In this document: positions 1 through 2,715 of the stretch, one piece after another
Position numbering within the stretch: position 1 is the stretch's first letter
Layout: every line of letters begins with the position of its first letter
Source: Thermobifida alba
GTDB taxonomy: Bacteria > Actinomycetota > Actinomycetes > Streptosporangiales > Streptosporangiaceae
NCBI RefSeq assembly: GCF_023208015.1
Contig: NZ_CP051627.1
Coordinates: forward strand, 4,756,422 to 4,820,421
Length of the DNA stretch: 64,000 nucleotides
Direction of reading: 5' to 3'
The notes under the pieces: generated by a model
What the model was told of the DNA's origin: nothing
What the model saw: the letters and a program-made list of their open reading frames with translations, nothing else
Databases searched by the model: none
Position numbers and translations under genes: made by a program

Positions 1-410
1 ATGTTGGCGAAGGCGACGCCCCACAGCAGGGCGGGCAGGGCGCTGCCCCAGAAGATCGCCTGGTCCCAGCGGGCGCGCCAGCGCTCGTCGTCGACCTTGC
101 CGCGGTACTCGAACGCCACCCCGCGGGCGATCAGCGCGAGCAGGACCACCAGCAGCGGCAGGTAGAAGCCGCTGAACAGGGAGGCGTACCAGGCGGGGAA
201 GGCGGCGAACATCGCTCCGCCCGCGGTGAGCACCCACACCTCGTTGCCGTCCCAGACCGGGCCGATCGCGTTGATCATGACACGGCGGTCGGTGTTGGTC
301 CTGCCGAGGAAGGGCAGCAGGATGCCCACCCCGAAGTCGAACCCCTCCAGGACGAAGTAGCCGATCCACAGCACCGCGATGGCGGCGAACCAGATGACTG
401 CGAGATCCAT
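1..410 (-). CDS. cydB: cytochrome bd oxidase subunit II (partial, 3' end beyond the window)
   Basis: CydB is the second integral membrane subunit of the quinol-oxidising cytochrome bd terminal oxidase. The visible 136 codons begin MDLAVIWFAAIAVLWIGYF and contain the family hallmark FVLEGFDFGVGILLPF, followed by the conserved NAIGPVWDGNEVWVL stretch; at least two membrane helices follow. The ATG lies nine bases after the cydA stop and a GGAG Shine-Dalgarno overlaps that stop, so the two genes are one transcript and probably translationally coupled. The remaining C-terminal part lies left of the window. The identification rests on clear motifs and on the partner gene. Confidence 0.95.
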   Translation of the reverse strand, partial: MDLAVIWFAAIAVLWIGYFVLEGFDFGVGILLPFLGRTNTDRRVMINAIGPVWDGNEVWVLTAGGAMFAAFPAWYASLFSGFYLPLLVVLLALIARGVAFEYRGKVDDERWRARWDQAIFWGSALPALLWGVAFAN

Positions 411-419
411 GCCGGGCTC

Positions 420-1871
420 CTAGTAGACGAACGCGGGGACGGGGGCGTCGTGGTCCTCTGCGGAGTCGTCGTCCCTGGGCGGCACGACGTGGGCGGGACC
501 CGCCTTGACGTAGCGCCACAGCAGCCCGGCCTCGACCACCGCGAGCACGCCGTAGATCAGGGTGAACAGGCTCAGCGAGAGGGCGACCTCGGTCAGGGAG
601 ACCCCGGGCGAGACGCTGGCCGCGGTGAGCAGTTCGCCCACGACCGTCCAGGGCTGGCGGCCCATCTCGGTGAGGATCCAGCCGCAGATGTTGGCGGCCA
701 GCGCGGCGGGCAGGGCGAGGACCGCGACCCAGTACATCCAGCGCTGCTCGGGCAGCCGGCCGCGGCGGGTCAGCCACAGCCCCGCGACCGCCACGGCGAC
801 ACCGCCCAGCCCCAGGCCCATCATCAGCCGGAACGACCAGTAGATGACGGGGACGTTGGGCACGTAGGAGCCCGGGCCGTAGGCGTCCTCGTAGCGTTCC
901 TGCACGTCGTTGATGCCCTGGACGTTGCCGTCGAGGCTGTCGGTGGCCAGGAGGCTCAGCAGGTGGGGGATCTGGATGTTGACGTGGTTGCGTCCGTCGA
1001 CCACGTCGCCGACCGCGAACAGCGAGAAGCCCGCGCCGTCCTCGTCCTCCCACAGCGCCTCGGCGCTGGCCAGCTTCATCGGCTCGTACTGGGCCATGAG
1101 CTGGGCCTGGTGGTGGCCGGAGAGGGCGACCACCAGGCCGGCGGCCGCGGTGACGGCCAGGCCGGCGCGCAGGGTCTTGCGGAACAGTTCGGGTTCGCTG
1201 CGGTGGGGGGCCTGGCCGGGGGTGCCGGTGTCGCCGTGGAAGCGGGCGCGCATCAGTTTGAAGGCGCTGACCGCGACCACGAACAGGCCCGCCGCGATGA
1301 ACGATCCGGCGACCGTGTGCAGGTAGGTCGACCACGCCTGGTCGTTGGAGAGCACCGCCCAGATGCTGGTGAGCTGGGCGCGTCCGGTCTCGGGGTTGAT
1401 CTCGAAGCCCACCGGGTTCCGCATCCAGGCGTTGGCGGCGAGGATGAAGTAGGCGGACAGGTTGGTGCCGACGGCCGCGGCCCAGATGGTGGCCAGGTGG
1501 ACCTTGCGGGGCAGTTTGTCCCAGCCGAAGATCCACAGTCCGATGAAGGTGGACTCCAGGAAGAAGGCGAGCAGGGCCTCCATGGCCAGGGGCGCGCCGA
1601 ACACGTCGCCGACGAAGCGCGAGTACTCGCTCCAGTTCATGCCGAACTGGAACTCCTGGACGATGCCGGTGACCACGCCCATGGCGAAGTTGATCAGGAA
1701 GAGCTTGCCGAAGAACTTGGTCGCCTGCAGGTATTCGTGCCTGCCGGTGCGGTACCAGGCCGTCTGCAGGCCGGCGACGATGACGGACAGGCCGATCGTC
1801 AACGGGACGAACAGGAAGTGGTAGACGGTGGTGATCCCGAACTGCCACCGTGCGAGGTCTAGTGCGTCCAT
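420..1871 (-). CDS. cydA: cytochrome bd oxidase subunit I
   Basis: CydA oxidises quinol and carries the haems of cytochrome bd, a high-affinity oxidase that works at low oxygen or when the bc1-aa3 branch is blocked. The 483-residue protein is of usual size. It starts MDALDLARWQFGITTVYHFLF, with His18 at the position of the haem b595 ligand, and it carries the GRQPW quinol-site signature in TEMGRQPWTVV. About nine transmembrane helices can be seen. A GGAGAGG ribosome site precedes the ATG. The upstream region holds three head-to-tail dyads (1911-1955), which suggests tight control by a dimeric repressor. The gene heads a cydA-cydB operon. Confidence 0.97.
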   Translation of the reverse strand: MDALDLARWQFGITTVYHFLFVPLTIGLSVIVAGLQTAWYRTGRHEYLQATKFFGKLFLINFAMGVVTGIVQEFQFGMNWSEYSRFVGDVFGAPLAMEALLAFFLESTFIGLWIFGWDKLPRKVHLATIWAAAVGTNLSAYFILAANAWMRNPVGFEINPETGRAQLTSIWAVLSNDQAWSTYLHTVAGSFIAAGLFVVAVSAFKLMRARFHGDTGTPGQAPHRSEPELFRKTLRAGLAVTAAAGLVVALSGHHQAQLMAQYEPMKLASAEALWEDEDGAGFSLFAVGDVVDGRNHVNIQIPHLLSLLATDSLDGNVQGINDVQERYEDAYGPGSYVPNVPVIYWSFRLMMGLGLGGVAVAVAGLWLTRRGRLPEQRWMYWVAVLALPAALAANICGWILTEMGRQPWTVVGELLTAASVSPGVSLTEVALSLSLFTLIYGVLAVVEAGLLWRYVKAGPAHVVPPRDDDSAEDHDAPVPAFVY

Positions 1872-1910
1872 ACGCCTCTCCGAAAGCAGGACGGCCCCGG
1901 GGCCTGAACT

Positions 1911-1955
1911 ACTACACAGTGTACTACTACAACTTGTAGTTCTACGACGTGTAGT
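1911..1955. promoter_or_regulatory. three contiguous 15-bp operator-like dyads upstream of cydA
   Basis: Three 15-bp units of the form nCTACnn-n-nnGTAGn abut exactly: 1911-1925 (one arm mismatch), 1926-1940 (a perfect 7-1-7 dyad, ACTACAA/TTGTAGT) and 1941-1955 (core CTAC/GTAG conserved). In each unit the CTAC-N5-GTA core sits at the same place, so the centres are exactly 15 bp apart. The array lies about 40-85 bp upstream of the cydA start. TACTACA/TGTAGTA-type dyads are known operators of BlaI/MecI/CopY winged-helix repressors; assignment of such a repressor here is inference. Confidence 0.7.
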
Positions 1956-2046
1956 AGATTACGGCAGGGGTCACGGGAGACCGCGGAGGGGCCGGGAAAG
2001 ACGACGGGCCGGCGGACGCCCGTCCGCCGGCCCCGGGACGCGGTCC

Positions 2047-2715
2047 TCACTCCACCGGTTCGGCCCCGCGCTCCACCAGCATGTCGTTCATCAGGTCGAT
2101 CTCGCTCTCCTGGGCGTCGATCATGCCCTGGGCCAGTGAGACCACCTTCTCCTCGGCGGCCAGCTCCACCGCCGCCTCGGCCATGTCCACCCCGCCCCGG
2201 TGGTGCTCGATCATCAGCTCCAGGAACAGGATCTCCGCCTCCACGCCCGAGGCCGCCCGCAGCGCCTCCATCTGCTCCTCCGTGGCCAGGCCCGGCATCC
2301 GGTCCGGCACCTCGCCGCCGCCTCCCCCGTGGTCGTGGCCGGCCATCCAGGTCATGGGCGGCTGGCTGCCGCGCATGGGCAGGTCCCAGGCGGCCAGCCA
2401 GCCGTCCATGCGCCCGATCTGGCCCTGCTGGGTGACGGCCATGTCGTAGGCCACCGTCTTCAGCATGGGCTCCTCGGTCTTGTCGTAGATGATCAGCGCC
2501 ATCTCCACCGCCTGGGCGTGGTGCGCGCTCATGTCGCGCAGGAAGCCCGCGTCCGCGGAGGAGTCCAGCGGCGTGTCGGAGCGGTTGACCAGAAGACCGG
2601 CCGCCGCGGCGAGCACGACCAGGAAGACCACGACCGGGAGCGGGACACGCCGCGGTACCCGCGGTAGTGAGGCCGTTACGGACCTGTCATCGCCTTCGTT
2701 ACCCAACGGAACCAT
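2047..2715 (-). CDS. DUF305 family exported/membrane-anchored protein
   Basis: This 222-residue protein has an N-terminal hydrophobic segment (about residues 25-44, VPLPVVVFLVVLAAAAGLLV) that serves as a signal anchor, then an extracytoplasmic DUF305 four-helix domain. Two Met/His-rich signatures, MSAHHAQAVEMA and MIEHHRGGVDMA, face each other in the fold, and a second His/Gly patch (GHDHGGGGGE) sits between them. DUF305 proteins are often found near copper or metal-handling genes, and these residues look metal-binding, but no reaction is established. It is divergent from the DUF3105 gene, a pairing I recall as frequent in actinobacteria. Confidence 0.88.
   Translation of the reverse strand: MVPLGNEGDDRSVTASLPRVPRRVPLPVVVFLVVLAAAAGLLVNRSDTPLDSSADAGFLRDMSAHHAQAVEMALIIYDKTEEPMLKTVAYDMAVTQQGQIGRMDGWLAAWDLPMRGSQPPMTWMAGHDHGGGGGEVPDRMPGLATEEQMEALRAASGVEAEILFLELMIEHHRGGVDMAEAAVELAAEEKVVSLAQGMIDAQESEIDLMNDMLVERGAEPVE

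Follow-up and report, generated by a model that had tools for sequence, protein, structure and literature searches.

Which repressor acts on the cytochrome bd genes of Thermobifida alba is the question raised by a row of short inverted repeats in front of cydA, found in a 64,000-nucleotide stretch of contig NZ_CP051627.1 (hereafter the window). Cytochrome bd has been described as a backup terminal oxidase and linked to tolerance of respiratory inhibitors in mycobacteria (PMC5874750, PMC5473688). A sequence-only reading of the window had likened the repeats to operators of the BlaI/MecI/CopY type and not to those of a redox sensor such as Rex, and had considered such a regulator unusual for this enzyme. 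The BlaI family is best known from penicillin resistance.

The 47 bp at window positions 1910-1956, TACTACacagtGTACTACTACaacttGTAGTTCTACgacgtGTAGTA, hold three CTAC-N5-GTA(G/C) dyads whose starts lie exactly 15 bp apart (Table 1), and the best of them forms a perfect 7-1-7 palindrome, ACTACAAcTTGTAGT (1926-1940), centred on box 2, as had been described from the sequence. Exact dyads occur twice in the 64 kb, both times as boxes of the array, against 0.03 expected (100 shuffles), and a pair of exact dyads at +15 appeared in none of 400 simulated 64-kb sequences built with the dinucleotide transition frequencies of the window. A chance origin of the 15-bp-period array is very unlikely. The GC content of the array is 38%, that of the window 72%.

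As cydA is the next gene on the minus strand, the array starts about 40 bp upstream of its ATG, and since a terminator-like hairpin parts cydA from the DUF305-family gene, the array lies within the promoter region of cydA itself. Two ABC-transporter genes following cydB on the same strand, left of the window, were read as putative cydD and cydC. It should be added that a DUF305 gene stands beside cydA also at four other loci (L093, L268, L273, L278). A sigma-70 promoter scan of the cydA upstream region found no promoter. Alignment of cydA promoters (20 loci tried, 7 without a returned start left out) suggests a candidate -10 hexamer overlapping box 1: TANACT is present at this place in the window and in three congeners, and is not evident in the other aligned genera. 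Such an overlap would explain the imperfection of box 1.

Table 1. Features of the cyd locus and boxed places in the T. alba genome. Positions refer to the window unless prefixed with G000:C1.
Feature	Position	Strand	Sequence or box	Remarks
cydB, 5' part	1..410	-		read from translations
cydA, cytochrome bd oxidase subunit I, target gene	420..1871	-		Pfam Cyt_bd_oxida_I, E=3.6e-167
Box 1, proximal, imperfect	1912..1924 (17-bp frame 1910-1926)		CTACacagtGTAC	
Candidate -10 hexamer of cydA	1918..1923	-	TACACT	overlaps box 1; suggested by alignment, sigma-70 scan negative
Box 2, middle	1927..1939 (17-bp frame 1925-1941)		CTACaacttGTAG	site also in three congeners
Box 3, distal	1942..1954 (17-bp frame 1940-1956)		CTACgacgtGTAG	site also in three congeners
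Terminator-like hairpin between DUF305 gene and cydA	2006..2033	-		1 found vs 0.1 expected in shuffles
DUF305-family gene upstream of cydA	2047..2715	-		
cydA and blaI				two of the seven boxed places in the genome
COX15/CtaA heme A synthase gene			box at start codon	same core listed in three congeners
Rieske protein gene			box just upstream	same core and same gene in three congeners
112-aa membrane protein gene	G000:C1:371896-371912 (box; L005, L217)		box ~10 bp upstream	no Pfam/NCBIfam match
CopD/CtaG gene			box upstream	possible 39-codon membrane-protein ORF (L216:1560-1679) between box and gene
WhiB gene, CopC gene next to it	G000:C1:4319515-4319556 (array; L060, L220)		degenerate three-unit 15-bp array	

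Other copies of the array were sought in the whole genome (4.9 Mb, one contig), as the sequence-only reading had proposed. The exact tandem pattern CTAC-N5-GTA-N3-CTAC-N5-GTA falls in two promoters only, those of cydA and of a blaI gene (three forward matches and one reverse). Lone CTAC-N5-GTAG sites are not enriched in the genome (10 sites vs 152 for the reversed-pattern control) and were dropped as proof of targets; since single sites do not exceed the control, evidence was drawn solely from place, tandem arrangement and conservation.

The genome has four matches to the Penicillinase_R profile, the fourth being weak and overlain by an ORF that reads as MarR-like. Only one of the four genes has a box in its promoter, namely blaI (L001, G000:C1:3608173-3608550), where CTACgccgtGTAG-TA-CTACcgccgGTAA forms two boxes with the same 15-bp period, the second imperfect; these two operators upstream of the gene predict autoregulation. 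The L001 protein belongs to the Penicillinase_R family (92.6 bits, cut-off 22.6), and the solved structure nearest to it is 2g9w (E=9.7e-33), the BlaI of Mycobacterium tuberculosis, Rv1846c (PMC9045315). It contains no cysteine and hence no CxC metal motif, and it scores 39 bits with the CopY equivalog, far under the cut-off of 121.95; a copper repressor of the CopY type was ruled out on these two grounds. The blaI gene is followed by one for a 314-aa membrane protease with a HEHAH motif and three hydrophobic segments, matching M48 with 40.5 bits (cut-off 20.3) and M56 with 28.6 bits, below the cut-off of 31; a domain scan of this partner found M48/M56 only and no penicillin-binding sensor domain. 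The sequence-only reading had suggested looking for BlaI/CopY-family genes near cydCD; this genome has no BlaI-family gene near the cyd operon, from which the nearest Penicillinase_R match is about 100 kb and the blaI with the boxes about 1.15 Mb distant.

The arrangement recurs beyond the species. All three other genomes of the genus have boxes 2 and 3, and box 1 is kept in one of the three congeners and degenerate in two (the kept form, with the same GTAC half, being that of G086 and G042, the degenerate one that of G040 and G111). Across the family, 169 of 297 genomes match the tandem pattern, a raw count that is weak by itself. Among the 30 family loci listed, 24 adjoin cydA-like and/or blaI genes; the other six comprise sdhC (L088), an FAD monooxygenase gene (L086) and four that resemble chance matches in coding sequence. 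In the class, the two-box pattern matches 29 of 197 genomes, with one locus taken per genome, against 43 of 197 for the reversed-pattern control, so that the location of the matches, and not their number, carries the argument: cydA-like and/or blaI genes are neighbours of 23 of the 29 loci, among which the locus of the window itself and that of one congener are counted, and the remaining six are copC (L251) and five without assignment. An exact box lies within 300 bp upstream in 20 of the 30 blaI loci listed and is absent from the other ten; a cydA-like gene occurs within the locus of about 3 kb in 10 of these 30, and blaI stands beside cydA with boxes between them in several lineages.

Box and Rex site were compared in the promoters of cydA loci from named genomes, the best 80 of at least 597, with the box sought up to 250 bp upstream. 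Among the 80 listed, an exact box was present in 26 promoters, in none of the 34 from Streptomycetaceae and in 26 of the 46 others. The exact Rex-like core TGTG-N8-CACA was found in 28 of the 34 Streptomycetaceae vs 2 of the 46 others in the same best 80 of at least 597, and with up to one mismatch in 33 and 12, respectively; neither box nor Rex-like core, with one mismatch allowed, was seen in 16 of the 80. BlaI was sought in 50 of the 80 named genomes (25 of the 30 omitted being Streptomyces). Where BlaI matched with 100 bits or more, 20 of 26 genomes had the cydA box, vs 2 of 24 genomes lacking such a match (Fisher p=8e-7; p=1.6e-4, 3.3e-5 and 4.8e-4 at 80, 90 and 110 bits, respectively), where the tests ignore kinship and the 100-bit threshold was picked after the scores were seen. 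The six of these 26 genomes in which a strong BlaI coexists with a boxless cydA were examined: in three (L114, L116, L132) a box separates blaI from a second cydA-like gene, two (L113, L115) have one at blaI, and one (L112) has neither a box at blaI nor a boxed second cydA-like gene. The second genes (L114/L198, L116/L197 and L132/L194, from Spirillospora and Actinomadura) are divergent, with 28-29% identity, and lie back to back with blaI, the boxes between them.

These results strongly support the assignment of the array to the BlaI/MecI/CopY type: the same array stands at blaI, the box recurs at the cyd promoters of related genera, whose lack of the array would have spoken against it, and blaI and cydA are frequently adjacent. 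The expectation that this would be unusual for cytochrome bd does not hold for the 46 non-Streptomycetaceae promoters listed, nor in view of a report from M. tuberculosis (PMC5473688).

The extent of the single site was derived from positions outside the search motif, as the two bases flanking CTAC were not used in box selection. Over the 92 half-sites of 46 boxes, both strands being read, the outer bases were T in 66 and A in 60 (T in 31), and owing to this bias the site extends to TACTAC-N5-GTAGTA, so that neighbouring 17-bp sites at a 15-bp period share two bases. The sequence-only reading had deduced cooperative binding of phased dimers on turned faces of the DNA. The turned faces stand, for 15 bp corresponds to about 1.43 turns at 10.5 bp per turn and neighbours would be turned by about 150 degrees; a fixed 15-bp phasing does not. 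Successive exact boxes in the 80 cydA loci are 15 bp (7 cases), 18 bp (5) or 19 bp (4) apart, with 23, 30, 34 and 88 bp occurring once each, some cydA promoters have a single box, and spacing is not conserved outside the family. With spacings of 18, 19 or 23 bp, or one box alone, in other lineages, 15-bp phasing is no general requirement, and the promoters compared do not support fixed cooperative stacking as a rule.

We consider it highly likely that the L001 BlaI, which would also repress its own blaI-protease operon, has in the array an operator of three units, from which the cyd genes would be released upon stress. Dimers of BlaI would occupy the TACTAC-N5-GTAGTA boxes over the cydAB(DC) promoter, perhaps cooperatively, and block RNA polymerase, while the same protein would repress the blaI-protease operon through the two-unit array of the same period. 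The neighbouring M48/M56-type protease would sense membrane stress and cleave BlaI, in the manner reported for the staphylococcal pair, where the protease cleaves the repressor (PMC5473688), and cleavage would free the cyd operon and, with it, further genes of respiration and copper. Respiratory or membrane stress as the signal is a guess based on the list of targets.

The regulator of the array is very probably this L001 protein, judging from the loci compared. We give little credence to the possibility that another Penicillinase_R paralog, L002 or L003, binds there; both are of the same family, and L002 is followed by an ORF that reads as protease-like, but neither locus (3.3 kb each) contains CTAC-N5-GTAG with up to one mismatch, and the ten blaI genes found in one locus with a cydA-like gene are 54-70% identical to L001 and have an exact box upstream in nine cases, which would favour L001. 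With their boxless loci, the paralogs were dropped. It is also quite improbable that the dimer sits in another register, on the GTAGTACTAC junction between boxes and not on CTAC-N5-GTAG. In a 15-bp array this junction can indeed be palindromic (GTAG-TA-CTAC), as it is in many relatives, and it is imperfect in the window; where boxes are spaced by 18, 19 or 23 bp or stand singly, however, the lineages keep CTAC-N5-GTAG and lose the GTAG-N2-CTAC junction. Because spacing varies between lineages, the site of the dimer would be CTAC-N5-GTAG.

That Rex is the true regulator, with the array coincidental or serving something else, we regard as very improbable, even though a gene for a Rex-type protein exists in the genome. 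In Streptomyces avermitilis, Rex has been shown to bind the cydA1 promoter, with a footprint at ATGTGAACGCGTTCACAA (PMC5355995), which is the commonest site in the Streptomyces cydA promoters among the loci listed. The T. alba cyd promoter (1872-2005), in turn, contains no TTGTG-N8-CACAA with up to two mismatches, and elsewhere in the window this pattern occurs at chance level (8 matches vs 7.2 expected). Only one of the 26 boxed cydA promoters holds the exact TGTG-N8-CACA, and seven hold it with one mismatch allowed. Rex was rejected for this promoter as it has no site there; a Rex-type operator, which would have displaced the BlaI assignment, is thus not seen.

Among the closest known counterparts is the M. 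tuberculosis pair BlaI (Rv1846c) and BlaR (Rv1845c). A 2017 paper states that mycobacterial BlaR is without the beta-lactam sensor domain and, citing Sala 2009, that BlaI binds the cytochrome bd promoter (PMC5473688), and an EMSA has been reported for BlaI at the Rv1303-atp promoter of the ATP synthase operon (PMC12565901). Both systems thus combine a close BlaI, a protease without a beta-lactam sensor and respiratory targets; they differ in that blaC is a BlaI target in M. tuberculosis, whereas no beta-lactamase was recognised at the seven boxed places here, and the accessible parts of these reports describe no tandem 15-bp array. The abstract of Sala 2009 reportedly lists ATP synthase and not cydAB. 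Other regulators named for mycobacterial cydAB are SenX3-RegX3 (PMC5874750) and a Crp (PMC7739888).

The staphylococcal BlaI-BlaR1 and MecI-MecR1 systems likewise encode a Penicillinase_R repressor with a membrane metalloprotease and use TAC/GTA dyads. Their operator is given as TACA/TGTA, and the related cop box as TACANNTGTA, duplicated at the cop promoter (PMC7253601). The array departs from the TACA-N2-TGTA core by one more base (box 2 has TACA-N3-TGTA), the partner is without a penicillin-binding domain, and the targets are respiratory. The CopY/CopR copper repressors resemble L001 in kinship, in dyad operators and in their duplication at the cop promoter, and differ from it in the CxC motif and the equivalog score given above.

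The Streptomyces Rex-cydABCD system is similar in placing a dedicated repressor site before cydA, yet operator and protein are others, and no boxed promoter occurs among the 34 Streptomycetaceae. The Rex regulon of S. avermitilis comprises cydA1B1CD, atp, nuo, rex-hem and wblE (PMC5355995). In kind it overlaps with the BlaI-box targets (cyd and a whiB) and with those of M. tuberculosis BlaI (atp). The overlap of the Rex and BlaI-box regulons would follow from wblE, which we take to be the counterpart of WhiB1.

Since many actinomycetes have the same sites at genes of respiration, a relative of an antibiotic-response switch seems to control a backup oxygen-reducing enzyme. The regulatory link is known in kind, as PMC5473688 and PMC12565901 report cases from M. 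tuberculosis, and tandem arrays of a BlaI-type operator with N5 core, tied to respiration, are a variant of it. The tandem architecture, the breadth, the partition between Rex and BlaI and the wider regulon look new in the literature searched; neither BlaI boxes in tandem at cyd nor a division of actinomycetes between BlaI and Rex were found described in these open-access sources. A broader reading, put forward tentatively, is that in much of the class BlaI and its protease may be mainly a respiratory switch taking the place of Rex at cyd, with beta-lactamase control a mycobacterial side branch of an energy-stress regulon, and damage to membrane or electron transport as its signal. If so, the target sets would be partly parallel, with cyd, atp, nuo, hem and wblE for Rex, and cyd, ctaA (heme A), copC/copD-ctaG (copper supply), sdhC, Rieske and WhiB1-like genes for the BlaI box. 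The shared box would make harmless actinomycetes a tractable model of the way in which a BlaR-type protease without a sensor couples gene expression to stress on membrane or respiration, a question left open for mycobacteria by PMC5473688. The motif could also help to chart respiratory regulons across many genomes, and cyd would offer an example from nature of one promoter served, depending on the lineage, by either of two unrelated repressors, Rex and BlaI.

The further candidate targets come from the 17-bp box with up to one mismatch, which occurs in the T. alba genome at 9 sites in seven places vs 12 for the control, and genes with a single site are to be taken as leads and not as proof (Table 1). 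The WhiB protein whose gene bears the degenerate array has WhiB1 as its closest solved relative. Among 10 named genomes, the perfect 17-bp box was matched in four, at ten sites, the genes there being cydA, blaI with cydA or a cydA-like gene, sdhC, WhiB, a thioredoxin-fold gene and copC, besides one without assignment (L243). The box at the WhiB gene of Actinomadura hibisca (L248) is intact and surrounded by repeated half-sites, and sdhC genes, for the cytochrome b subunit of succinate dehydrogenase (L088 and L247), have tandem or paired boxes about 150 bp upstream. A perfect 17-bp box (L249:1501-1517) lies directly upstream of the thioredoxin-fold gene, which reads as TlpA-like and possibly belongs to a cytochrome c maturation operon. 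In one congener (G111), the site TACTACGTCACGTAGTT is similar to the box before the 112-aa membrane protein gene. It should also be added that an intact tandem array (L086:1501-1528) precedes the FAD monooxygenase gene, which is not obviously respiratory.
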